From Gleimia coleocanis DSM 15436 (GTDB taxonomy: Bacteria > Actinomycetota > Actinomycetes > Actinomycetales > Actinomycetaceae): 64,000 bases of DNA. Below are positions 40,865 through 61,551 of the stretch, in pieces. Each line of letters begins with the position of its first letter. Position 1 is the first letter of the stretch. The stretch is from assembly GCF_000159015.1 (NCBI RefSeq), contig NZ_DS999544.1, forward strand, positions 1-64,000. Reading direction: 5' to 3'. The notes under the pieces are model-generated. The model was not told the DNA's origin. It saw only the letters and a list, made by a program, of their open reading frames with translations, and made no database searches. Both the position numbers and the translations under genes were made by a program.

Positions 40865-41012
40865 CACGCCGCAAAACCTGAAAGGTACCACGCTGAGATT
40901 GGAAAACCGTTGAAGCGTAACACGCAAGACAGGTTTCAGCGTCGAAAAACTAATTAATAAAGCGGAGCGTAACACGCCGCAGATGAGTATCTGGGCGTGT
41001 TACGCTCCGCTT
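40856..41012. repeat. Word-B cluster between BrnQ and CPBP genes, with hairpin
   Basis: Word-B copies lie at 40856-40870 (containing the BrnQ stop), about 40911, and an inverted pair at 40960-41012: AAGCGGAGCGTAACACGCC with its exact complement, extended inside by CAGAT/ATCTG. The pair lies between convergent genes and can serve as a terminator for both. The reverse-strand gene stop is at 41011, inside the right arm. Confidence 0.8.
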
Positions 41013-45656: not shown

Positions 45657-48191
45657 CTACTTAAAACGACGCAAACGCAAGGAATTCGACACCACCAGCA
45701 CCGAAGAACAAGCCATCGCCGCCCCCGCAATCATCGGGTTCAACAAACCCGCCACCGCCAGCGGAATCGCAGCCACGTTATAAGCAAACGCCCAAAACAG
45801 ATTCTGCTTAATCACCCGCAGCGTCGCCCGCGAAATCCGAATAGCAGTTGGCGCACTCGCCAAATCAGAACCAATCAGCGTAATATCAGCCGCCTCAATC
45901 GCTGTGTCCGTGCCCGACCCCATTGCGATTCCCAAACCCTGCACGCCTGCCTGTGCCAGTGCAGCCGCATCATTAACGCCGTCGCCAACCATTGCTACGA
46001 CCCTATCCTGCGCCTGCAAATCAGCAATCCGATCACGCTTTTGCTCAGGCAAAACCTGCGCAAAAACGGTTTCAATTCCCACTTCAGTTGCAACCCGACG
46101 AGCACTTTGCGGATTATCCCCCGTAATCATAATCGGCTCAATCTGAAGCTCACGTAGCTGACTAATCGCCTGCGCGCTCGTCGGCTTCACCTGGTCAGCA
46201 ATAAACAAAACAGCACGTAACTGGCAGTTTTCAGGTTGCTGCGCTGCCAGAATCGTAGGTGCCTCCACCCAAAAATCGTGGGCGCGGGAAACTGGTTTCG
46301 GCGTGTTTTCTACATTTTCGAGGGCGGTGCTAGACAGCACCTGCGCAGAATATCCAGCTTTTACGATGGTTTCTACTAGCTCGCTTCCATCTGCAGAATA
46401 CTCTGCAGCTGGAAGCGTAACACGCGCAGTTTCCGTAGCTAGGTTAACTTCAGCTTTAACTCCGGGAAGTTTCCCAAGTTTACGTTCCACTCGGCGAACG
46501 CAAGAAGCACAAGTCATCCCTTGGAGGGAAAGTTCAAACACCTGCTGCGGAGCGTAACTCTCCGCACTGGTAGATTCCGTGGTTTCAACTGGGAGTTTTT
46601 CAGGGTTCTGCTTTAGATGCGGCGTGTTACGCTCCGGCGTATCAAGCTTATCCGCAGGGAAAACGCTTAGAGGTACAGTACCGACCGCAATCACCGTTGC
46701 ACCAGAAGACAACCCTGCAGACAGGTTTTGTGCAACAGCGGAAAAATCAAACCCTAAATCCTGTAAAAACTGCGGACTGCCAACAAAAACACGGTTGCTA
46801 CCAACAGTGGCAGACGCTCCGAAACCAGCATGGTTTACGAAATCAACACTAGTGGGGAAGACACTGGACGGCGTGTTACGCTCCGAAGATTGGGAAAGCC
46901 ACTCAGCAGCATCCGGCGTGTTATGCTCCGCGGTAAGAGAAGCAAAATCAACCACCGCAGCTGCAATCGGATGAGAAGAATGAGCTTCAACGGAAGCAGC
47001 TAACGCAACGCCCTCGGAAAAAGCCAACTCCCCAAGATCCCCGCTAACTGCACCAGACGCAGAAACCAAGAACCCGCCCGTCACGCGCATCTCGCCCGCC
47101 GTAATCGTGCCCGTCTTATCCAACAAAATCGTGTCAATCTGGCGGGTCGACTCCAAAATCTCCGGACCCTTAATCACAATCCCCAGCTGCGCCGCCCGGC
47201 CAGAACCTACCAGCAACGCAGTTGGAGTAGCCAAACCCAACGCGCACGGACAAGCAATCACCAAAACCGCCACCGCAGCAGTAAACGCCGCCTGCGTAGA
47301 CGCGCCCGCCAGCAACCAGCCAAGCAAAGTTAAAGCAGAAATCCCTAAAACCACAGGCACAAAAACGCCTGAAACCTTATCTGCCAACCGCTGCACCGGA
47401 GCCTTCCCCAGTTGCGCTGCAGTAACCATCGCGCCAATCCGCGCCAAAGTCGTCTCAGCCCCCACGCGAGTCAAACGCACCTGCAAAAGACCATCAGTAT
47501 TAATCGTCCCACCCGTAACCGCGTCACCTGCACTCATGAAAACCGGCACAGATTCGCCTGTTAAAAGGGAAGTATCAACCGCTGCGGAGCCCTCAATCAC
47601 CACGCCATCTGCGGGAATCTTCTCACCAGCTTTTACTAAAACCACGTCATCAACCAGCAGAGACTCTGCACTTACCTGCGTCACATTACCTGCAGAATCA
47701 ACGCGTAAAGCCTGTTTTGCACCCAGCTCTAACAATGAACGCAGAGCGTCACCCGCCTGCGCCTTCGTATGCGCCTCTGCAAAACGGCCCGCCAGTAGGA
47801 AAGTCGTGACCACCGCTGCGGTTTCAAAATATAGCTCCGGGTGCGCATCCGACGCGTGCTGGGGCAGAAAAGTCATATGCATGACGTGACCCCAGGTGCC
47901 AGCTTCCGTGAAAAATAACGCCCACAAAGACCAGCCCATTGCCGCGATAACGCCCAGGGAAACTAGCGTATCCATAGTGGAACCACCATGCCGCCCTGCT
48001 TGGAAAGCCGCCTTATGAAATGGCCACGCTCCCCACGACACTACGGGCAGAGCTAGACCCGCCATAATCCACTGCCAGCCAGGAAACTGCAATGCTGGAA
48101 TCATAGAAATCAGCATCACTGGCAGTGTTAAAACCGCAGAAACCAGTAGTCGAATGCGTAGCTGGCTGATGCGGGTGGATTGGTGCGACAT
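45657..48191 (-). CDS. copA: Copper-type P1B ATPase with an internal HMA domain
   Basis: Exports Cu+ (or a similar soft metal) using ATP. The 844 residues hold TGES (211-214), the metal-site CPC (314-316), DKTGT with phosphorylated Asp358, SSHP (405-408), TGDN (690-693) and GDGVND (736-741). Unusually there is no N-terminal metal-binding domain: the chain begins at the first membrane helix, and a complete HMA domain with GMTCASC (558-564) sits inside the cytoplasmic region, between the N-domain strand GATVIAVG (497-504) and the P-domain strand LRAVLFIADQVKPTS (658-672). The extra ~150 residues are edged by word-B peptides (ERNTP at 520-524, AESYAP) and a word-A peptide (TALEN). Strong AAGGAG before the ATG. 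CopZ is encoded 73 bases upstream. Confidence 0.9.
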   Translation of the reverse strand: MSHQSTRISQLRIRLLVSAVLTLPVMLISMIPALQFPGWQWIMAGLALPVVSWGAWPFHKAAFQAGRHGGSTMDTLVSLGVIAAMGWSLWALFFTEAGTWGHVMHMTFLPQHASDAHPELYFETAAVVTTFLLAGRFAEAHTKAQAGDALRSLLELGAKQALRVDSAGNVTQVSAESLLVDDVVLVKAGEKIPADGVVIEGSAAVDTSLLTGESVPVFMSAGDAVTGGTINTDGLLQVRLTRVGAETTLARIGAMVTAAQLGKAPVQRLADKVSGVFVPVVLGISALTLLGWLLAGASTQAAFTAAVAVLVIACPCALGLATPTALLVGSGRAAQLGIVIKGPEILESTRQIDTILLDKTGTITAGEMRVTGGFLVSASGAVSGDLGELAFSEGVALAASVEAHSSHPIAAAVVDFASLTAEHNTPDAAEWLSQSSERNTPSSVFPTSVDFVNHAGFGASATVGSNRVFVGSPQFLQDLGFDFSAVAQNLSAGLSSGATVIAVGTVPLSVFPADKLDTPERNTPHLKQNPEKLPVETTESTSAESYAPQQVFELSLQGMTCASCVRRVERKLGKLPGVKAEVNLATETARVTLPAAEYSADGSELVETIVKAGYSAQVLSSTALENVENTPKPVSRAHDFWVEAPTILAAQQPENCQLRAVLFIADQVKPTSAQAISQLRELQIEPIMITGDNPQSARRVATEVGIETVFAQVLPEQKRDRIADLQAQDRVVAMVGDGVNDAAALAQAGVQGLGIAMGSGTDTAIEAADITLIGSDLASAPTAIRISRATLRVIKQNLFWAFAYNVAAIPLAVAGLLNPMIAGAAMACSSVLVVSNSLRLRRFK

Positions 48192-48264: not shown

Positions 48265-48495
48265 TCAAGCAGAAACGGAAACCAGTTCGTATCCGGCTTC
48301 ATCAACTGCATCAGCAAAAGCTGCTTCACTTACTTCTGCGTCTGCTTCAACGGTGGCTACGGAAACTGCTTCTTTACCGGCATTTAGTTCCACATTCACC
48401 GTGGTAACGCCAGCGATTTCAGAGATTTCCTCAGTTACAGAAGCAACGCAGTGTCCGCAGGTGAGGCCGCGAATTTCTAGCTGGTAGGTGCTCAT
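48265..48495 (-). CDS. copZ: Copper chaperone CopZ-like HMA protein
   Basis: This 76-residue free-standing heavy-metal-associated domain has the metal motif GLTCGHCVASV (Cys13 and Cys16) and ferredoxin-like beta-alpha-beta pattern with VNVELNAGKEAV and a final GYELVSV strand. It delivers copper to the ATPase encoded next. GAAAGGAAC precedes the ATG. The YibE/F gene lies upstream in the same direction. Confidence 0.9.
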   Translation of the reverse strand: MSTYQLEIRGLTCGHCVASVTEEISEIAGVTTVNVELNAGKEAVSVATVEADAEVSEAAFADAVDEAGYELVSVSA

Positions 48496-54390: not shown

Positions 54391-54484
54391 CGGAGCGTAA
54401 CACGCCAATCTCACCCACCACAGCGTGTTACGCTCCGAAAACCCAAACAAATGGGGAAGAAGAATCGGCGTGTTACGCTTCGGC
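54391..54484. repeat. Word-B inverted pair and extra copy between divergent ispF and cysS
   Basis: CGGAGCGTAACACGC (54391-54405) pairs with GCGTGTTACGCTCCG (54423-54437), and a third copy (reverse) lies at about 54469. The genes on both sides point away, so a terminator role does not explain this pair; it could block read-through into the neighbouring promoter or have a non-transcriptional role. Confidence 0.75.
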
Positions 54485-61460: not shown

Positions 61461-61551
61461 CGGAGCGTAACACGCCGTAAACGTTGAGTCAGGCGTGTTA
61501 CGCTCCGGTAATTTCAGGGCAGTTTTACTGCCTTATCAGCGTGTTACGCTT
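61461..61551. repeat. Word-B inverted pair and extra copy between PutP and PutA
   Basis: CGGAGCGTAACACGCC (61461-61476) pairs exactly with GGCGTGTTACGCTCCG (61492-61507), five bases after the PutP stop; a third (reverse) copy lies at about 61537. The pair is a likely PutP terminator. The rest of the 218-base gap includes a degenerate word A at 61583 and the PutA promoter. Confidence 0.8.

Follow-up and report, generated by a model that had tools for sequence, protein, structure and literature searches.

Position of the HMA domain in the copper pump

We analyzed a stretch of 64,000 nucleotides from Gleimia coleocanis DSM 15436 (contig NZ_DS999544.1, positions 1 to 64,000 of the forward strand; family Actinomycetaceae), which is referred to here as the window. 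On its reverse strand lies a copA-like gene for a copper P1B-1 ATPase. The sole HMA metal-binding domain of this pump is not located at the N-terminus but in the turn of the last β-hairpin of the ATP-binding N domain, where it is held by two linkers. The features of the gene are the following, in the order in which the gene is read.

45657-48191, reverse strand: copper P1B-1 ATPase gene (copA-like), 844 amino acids, with the HMA domain between the two arms of the final hairpin in the N domain (open reading frame, Pfam, TIGR01511)
47244-47252, reverse strand: CPC transmembrane copper motif, residues 314-316 (read in sequence)
47106-47120, reverse strand: DKTGT phosphorylation motif, residues 358-362 (read in sequence)
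46671-46697, reverse strand: final strand of the N domain ahead of the insert, residues 499-507, GATVIAVGT (model; comparison with uninterrupted relatives)
46548-46670, reverse strand: linker 1, residues 508-548, partly disordered, with 519-544 below 50 in the predicted local distance difference test (pLDDT) (predicted structure)
46323-46547, reverse strand: inserted HMA domain, read here as relocated, model residues 549-623, Pfam 554-614 (Pfam and predicted structure)
46500-46520, reverse strand: GMTCASC copper-binding motif, residues 558-564 (read in sequence)
46224-46322, reverse strand: linker 2, residues 624-656, with 626-635 below pLDDT 50 and a predicted helix at 636-650 (predicted structure)
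46188-46223, reverse strand: strand behind the insert that leads back to the P domain, residues 657-668 (model; comparison with uninterrupted relatives)
45969-45986, reverse strand: GDGVND P-domain motif, residues 736-741 (read in sequence)

Judged by its sequence, the pump is a complete Cu+ P1B-1 export ATPase. It scores above the cut-offs of the copper-translocating ATPase model TIGR01511 (489 bits, cut-off 397) and of TIGR01525 (537.9 bits, cut-off 346.25). Besides the catalytic motifs listed above it has TGE (residues 211-213), HP (H407-P408) and GxG (G456/G458). The N-domain positions of CopA which presumably bind ATP are retained as well. The transmembrane copper residues are C314-P315-C316, Y804-N805 and M826 with S829/S830; we take CPC, YN and MxxSS to be the transmembrane copper motifs, in part after PMC7558416.

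Pfam places the HMA domain (PF00403) at residues 554-614 with 54.3 bits (cut-off 24.8). It is the single HMA domain among the 844 residues, and neither protein end carries one. PF00702 is split into two stretches, the better of which covers residues 651-749. The protein starts at its first membrane helix and the open frame reaches only three codons further upstream (847 amino acids), so that no in-frame N-terminal HMA domain is hidden there. In the predicted structure the insert comprises the 149 residues 508-656 between strands 499-507 and 657-668 (the LRAVLFIAD region); these two strands form the last hairpin of the N domain. The linkers flanking the HMA domain measure about 41 and about 33 residues and include two of the model's three stretches with a pLDDT under 50. 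In most of the printed relatives with the ordinary domain order this hairpin closes with a short turn, for example WDG or IDG.

A sequence-only reading of the window had described an HMA domain inside the ATP-binding region of a copper ATPase that begins at its first membrane helix, with GMTCASC at residues 558-564 and an insert of roughly 150 residues between the strands GATVIAVG and LRAVLFIAD. All of this stands, and the coordinates proposed for the domain, 46330-46560, are correct to about 15 bases. That reading had also put the HMA domain next to the nucleotide site. This was not borne out; the domain sits on the hairpin turn, on linkers with stretches of low predicted order.

The structures 7r0g and 3a1c are, as we take it, from CopA of Archaeoglobus fulgidus, and 3rfu and 4bbj presumably from CopA of Legionella pneumophila. 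The best Foldseek matches of the pump model are 4bbj and 7r0g. With VIA-align the model superimposes on 7r0g with Z 33.9 over 631 residues, and 264 of the 267 residues of the isolated P/N domain of A. fulgidus CopA (3a1c) are aligned (Z 24.4, root mean square deviation 3.6). Thus, the insert interrupts the domain and removes no parts of it. The window pump has the core fold and the CPC, YN, MxxSS, TGE, DKTGT and GDGVND motifs in common with both CopA proteins. The metal-binding domains (MBDs) of the latter are N- or C-terminal according to PMC7558416, whereas the only one of the window pump lies inside the N domain; the CopA layout with a terminal MBD is not found here. This bacterial copper review gives metal-binding sites as N-terminal and sometimes C-terminal as well, and a 2024 paper locates the domains at the cytosolic termini (PMC11970713). 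In the literature searched, where subscription papers are thinly covered and which does not extend to a 2014 review of P1B diversity, we found no description of an HMA domain inside the N/P loop. The sequence-only reading could not recall a family with this order either.

According to the pump search the window pump is the only CPC pump in its genome. Two other ATPases were found there; one has a CPH motif and a His-rich start, and the other is a P-type ATPase that is less closely related. The former (L002, contig G000:C34) resembles CopB-type pumps, a label which we assume to apply to ATPases with the CPH motif.

Occurrence of the insert order

In a first reading of related sequences, the other 10 sampled genomes of the genus and representatives of four more genera had the HMA motif after DKTGT and ahead of GDGVND, with no copy preceding DKTGT. 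Next, 213 genomes of the Actinomycetaceae were searched with a profile (A1, 15 rows) that covers the HMA and P domains. Taking profile and reading together, the insert order is present in 62 of the 213 genomes and in 9 of 36 genera, including all 11 genomes of the pump's own genus (G173, G202 and G164 do not enter this tally). The question raised by the sequence-only reading, whether close relatives have the same order, can thus be answered with yes.

In 60 genomes a single match spans the HMA and P domains. By genus these are 11 of 11 (g1), 31 of 35 (g10), 5 of 6 (g16), 4 of 4 (g20), 3 of 3 (g27), 2 of 2 (g54), 2 of 4 (g21) and one of one each for g6 and g52. Two insert-order genomes of the 62 (G179 and G206) were missed by the profile, the match being split by long linkers, and were found by reading. 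In the largest genus with the insert order, 33 of 35 genomes have it. The weakest spanning match scores 178 bits and the best match to the P domain only 145 bits (G173, broken open reading frame). With Pfam, six out of six further insert-type proteins gave an interior HMA domain and PF00702 in two stretches.

The window genome is a draft of 35 contigs, and an assembly or annotation artefact could be suspected. The identical order in 62 genomes, several of which are single-contig, rules this out, and we give an artefact virtually no chance at all. A chance arrangement is ruled out by the same conservation.

Outside the family the order was not met. It was found in none of 361 evenly sampled genomes from the other families of the order (top score 138.5 bits) and in none of 245 other genomes of a phylum sample (E 1e-44), where profile A1 can miss cases with long linkers. 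None of 348 genomes from the phylum of G816 (sample centred on the L050 genome) and none of 349 from the phylum of G817 (centred on the L107 genome) matched at E 1e-40, with the family-tuned profile and no positive control. These empty samples weigh little, since the profile is tuned to the family and an independent insertion could escape it. Four of the listed tblastn matches from at least 5000 plasmid records seem to join HMA and P domain (H1, H3, H4 and H10), and in none of the four is the HMA inserted.

Among the best 80 of at least 591 loci from the named genome collection one has the insert order, namely L035 from a metagenome-assembled genome of the Actinomycetaceae, whose match coordinates are identical to those of G004. 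In the other 79 loci the motif is N-terminal, N- plus C-terminal (L070 and L101) or undetected by the pattern. The P1B ATPases with a C-terminal HMA domain (L070, L101 and L103) resemble the window pump in having an HMA domain away from the N-terminus, but theirs is at the other protein end and outside the catalytic loop. L039 from Actinomyces denticolens belongs to the same pump family but carries its HMA domain at the start (Pfam 1-53) and has a short hairpin turn. Its match has the coordinates of that in G065, from which genus g4 would seem to be Actinomyces.

Two individual pumps deserve mention. L145 (G173:C8), from a genus that generally has the insert order, is an ATPase open reading frame of 618 amino acids which has neither DKTGT nor CPC nor HMA; it is an internal deletion or an assembly fault. 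The CopA of L154 (G025, genus g16) groups with that of Dietzia, apart from the insert-type pumps (97% in the Shimodaira-Hasegawa-like approximate likelihood ratio test, SH-aLRT). As five of the six sampled g16 genomes have the insert type, this grouping suggests a replacement through horizontal transfer.

Source of the domain, number of moves and dispersed words

Just upstream of the pump and on the same strand there is a separate gene for a small HMA protein.

48265-48495, reverse strand: CopZ-like chaperone gene, 76 amino acids (profile matches)

This open reading frame matches CopZ profiles only under their cut-offs (NF033795, 55.9 bits, cut-off 91) and PF00403 above it (45.9 bits, cut-off 24.8). 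The CopZ/Atx1 chaperones share the HMA fold and CxxC with the inserted domain. A tree with 104 HMA sequences, however, puts all 47 CopZ-like open reading frames on one side of a branch with 97% SH-aLRT support and the 57 ATPase HMAs, terminal and inserted, on the opposite side; this tree has only 63 columns and one long row (L032) adjoins the branch. A CopZ chaperone gene is thereby ruled out as the source of the insert. The HMAs of both pump orders intermingle in their half of the tree. Because the ATPase HMAs are split from the CopZ-like proteins, the most plausible origin of the insert is the HMA domain of the pump itself, which would have been relocated. A profile scan of 159 ATPase open reading frames found 61 with an inserted HMA domain (45 genomes), and none of these 61 has a second HMA domain; rows L115-L144 lack the extreme N-terminus, which is cut by the locus, and a 62nd hit (L088) is a chance match of 3 bits.

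We then considered how often the domain has moved. In a tree of the pump core from which the HMA domain was left out (60 rows, 638 columns), the insert-type pumps of G162 and G163 join the N-terminal type of G030 with 100% SH-aLRT and stand apart from the other insert-type pumps. All three genomes belong to genus g21, which thus holds both orders. A single clade of all insert-type pumps is rejected for the core (approximately unbiased test, p 8.6e-44), and a single clade of all inserted HMAs is rejected for the HMA domain alone (56 rows, run without the CopZ rows and the long row L032; p 0.012). A clade of the insert-type pumps minus G162/G163 is not rejected in either case (p 0.72 for the core, p 0.36 for the HMA domain), and the core tree constrained in this manner even exceeds the free search by 8 log units. 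The groups were chosen after the tree had been seen, which weakens these p values. Recombination as an explanation for the placement of G162/G163 is unsupported: the same trio with G030 is returned by both halves of the core (SH-aLRT 100 and 96) and by the HMA domain alone (100/96.6). Since the insert-type pumps are rejected as one clade and one genus holds both orders, at least two moves probably took place, each time of the lineage's own HMA domain and into the same turn.

The half-core trees give a less tidy picture. In neither do the remaining insert-type pumps form a clean clade. In the first half, the N-terminal types L028 and L039 and the trio stand among the insert-type pumps (support 79) and four label changes are needed; in the second half, L018, L021 and L036 are found among them too (support 85) and five changes are needed. 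At least two moves is the simplest history; one early move may instead have been followed by several reversals, which would require more changes.

The pump of G030 (L155) is of the same family as the window pump and comes from a genus with the insert order, but its HMA domain is at residues 76-134 (Pfam). In the last N-domain turn, where its genus-mates carry the HMA domain, L155 has a long repetitive loop rich in Ser, Pro and Asp (SPERSDPSA-like repeats) and free of HMA. This loop is a possible intermediate. That the turn is already long without an HMA domain suggests that a lengthened, tolerant turn preceded the move. Taken together, we regard the window pump as an apparently undescribed, conserved form within a known family of pumps, in which the HMA domain was probably relocated more than once.

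The sequence-only reading had connected the insert with short repeated words. The word peptides ERNTP, SYAP and TALEN are indeed present in and around the insert. The sites are:

46870-46884, reverse strand: word in a loop of the N domain, not in the insert, ERNTP, passenger (word search)
46915-46929: another word copy, N-domain loop outside the insert
46621-46635, reverse strand: word in linker 1, ERNTP, passenger (word search)
46549-46563, forward strand: word in linker 1, SYAP, passenger (word search)
46412-46426, forward strand: word over the HMA codons RVTLP, passenger (word search)
46316-46326, reverse strand: copy of word A beneath TALEN (word search)

Word B, GGAGCGTAACACGCC, occurs exactly in three of the 11 genomes of the genus (17 copies in the window genome, 45 in G005 and 45 in G008), with no hit of a control pattern in any of them. 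That the words carried or drove the HMA domain into the ATPase might be thought from their presence in the linkers and the HMA domain of the window copy. The other eight genomes, however, have the inserted HMA domain without any exact GGAGCGTAACACGCC, an absence for which the sequence-only reading had proposed to look. The HMA word is spelled GCG CGT GTT ACG CTT CC in the window pump, and GCT CGG ATT ACC TTA CC or GCG CGC ATT ACA TTG TC in two sister species; these other codons at the RVTLP site indicate that the word arose there by substitution. We therefore rule out the words as carriers or drivers of the move, a role with only the slightest residue of probability. They are no part of the arrangement but later passengers in the insert. 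The site 46412-46426 illustrates that a word need not be inserted but can also be produced by substitutions within coding sequence under constraint.

Within copA the word sites are in the N-domain loop, and in the first linker (window genome and G008, at shared places); G005 and G008 carry words close to the beginning of the open frame as well. These single copies in the copA genes of three species are mostly read as ERNTP or SYAP/CYAP. In the window genome all 17 exact copies of GGAGCGTAACACGCC (core GCGTAACACGC, a 4-3-4 dyad) lie in contig C30, mainly at 30000-110000 of G000:C30, that is from 30000 to 64000 of the window and on. With up to one mismatch the core GCGTAACACGC is found 90 times in the 136 kb of C30, with a peak at 40-70 kb and none past 110 kb, vs once in 80 kb sampled of contig C34. 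The clustering is similar in G005 (42 of 45 copies in one contig) and G008 (37 of 45). Intergenic copies often are inverted pairs 30 bases apart which resemble terminator hairpins (40964-41008, 54392-54436 and 61462-61506). Such confinement of word B to a single genome region is a poor fit for a DNA-uptake signal. Word A, CGCCCTCGRAA, counts 295 copies in the window genome vs one of the reversed control, 276 in G008, 204 in G005, 163 in G002, 103 in G010 and 11-32 in the other six genomes (controls 2-8 in these ten); 18 of its sites are in the window, for example 46316-46326 and 47009-47019. This distribution is reminiscent of a genome-wide signal sequence.

Function of the inserted domain

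The profile found 61 inserted HMAs (45 genomes), and all 61 retain the CxxC motif, vs 120 of 131 N-terminal HMAs from all loci, the 10 printed exceptions of the latter being all in distant-pump loci (L051-L112). At a P-domain identity of 0.66 the insert-type HMAs have an identity of 0.59 (435 pairs), and the N-terminal type has 0.63 at 0.67 (190 pairs). These figures and the retention of CxxC point to a domain under constraint, almost like an ordinary HMA domain.

It could be that the hairpin turn tolerates inserts, that a tethered HMA domain works anywhere and that its place adds no function. Such a near-neutral shuffling would agree with the ordinary to slightly low conservation of the domain, with the HMA-free Ser/Pro-rich stretch in the same turn of L155 and with the wide spread of linker lengths among the insert-type pumps, the linkers of others being longer than those of the window pump. 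Yet the order is held throughout the own genus and in 33 of 35 genomes of the largest one, CxxC is lost in none of the 61 inserted HMAs, the two HMA positions were not found together in one protein and the move into the same turn was apparently repeated. We consider the shuffling unlikely.

We favor another reading, to which we give slightly better than an even chance: the inserted HMA domain would sense copper and regulate the pump, with the N domain as its new point of attachment. Regulation could then proceed in the following steps. At low copper the HMA domain would dock on the soluble domains, at the A/N or the A/P interface, and slow the turnover. Once loaded with Cu+, perhaps by the CopZ of the neighboring gene, it would let go and the pump would run. 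As the N domain moves, its tether would hold the HMA domain close to the surface on which regulation is thought to act, and the HMA domain would keep the role that is ascribed to the N-terminal MBD. For the Legionella pump, PMC11970713 reports from nuclear magnetic resonance and nanobody experiments that the terminal MBD senses copper and that a flexible tail inhibits at low copper, probably at the A/N interface; a nanobody that acts like this tail binds the N domain. From electron cryomicroscopy and simulation, structural, delivery and possibly autoinhibitory roles have been assigned to different terminal domains (PMC10973460). An HMA domain that hangs on the N domain by two linkers appears well placed for sensing and less so for delivery to the membrane.

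The HMA domain could also act as a copper relay which takes Cu+ from CopZ, swings on its linkers and hands the ion to the membrane entry at the MB' platform. The fetched loci, whose flank lengths differ, contain a small CopZ-like HMA open reading frame in 29 of 29 insert-type rows and in 18 of 28 others, and linkers of the length described could permit the swing. A delivery help by one MBD has been proposed for the pumps studied in PMC10973460, but A. fulgidus CopZ is reported to deliver straight to the transmembrane domain (PMC11970713). A further point against the relay is that the N domain is distant from the membrane and moves during the cycle. Such a relay is, in our judgment, distinctly improbable, and sensing is favored over it as well as over near-neutral shuffling.

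Several observations weigh against the sensing reading. When inserted and N-terminal HMAs are compared in equal bins of P-domain identity, their identities are 0.52/0.60, 0.55/0.61, 0.59/0.63 and 0.73/0.73; the inserted domains are somewhat less conserved in three of the four bins. This lower conservation and the untidy half-core trees slightly reduce our confidence. The activity of A. fulgidus CopA is unaffected by deletion of its terminal domains, as told in PMC11970713, and by analogy the inserted HMA domain may matter little. In addition, the modeled linkers are long enough that the place of the HMA domain may be immaterial.

The sequence-only reading had envisaged that copper binding is coupled directly to ATP hydrolysis. 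Such a coupling is possible. In its extended form, copper binding by the HMA domain would directly alter the movement of the N domain or its use of ATP, and such a copper sensor built on the N domain would have been reached at least twice at the same turn; this form we regard as tentative and rather doubtful.

The role of the MBDs of copper pumps, be it delivery, sensing or inhibition, is still debated according to PMC11970713 and PMC10973460. A pump whose sole MBD is on the N domain, and is kept there after apparently at least two moves, is a natural test of this role. The insert-type pumps of G162/G163 and the N-terminal type of G030 form a matched pair within one genus, which makes the question directly testable. 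If true, a copper sensor on the N domain would be a control principle distinct from terminal metal-binding domains.

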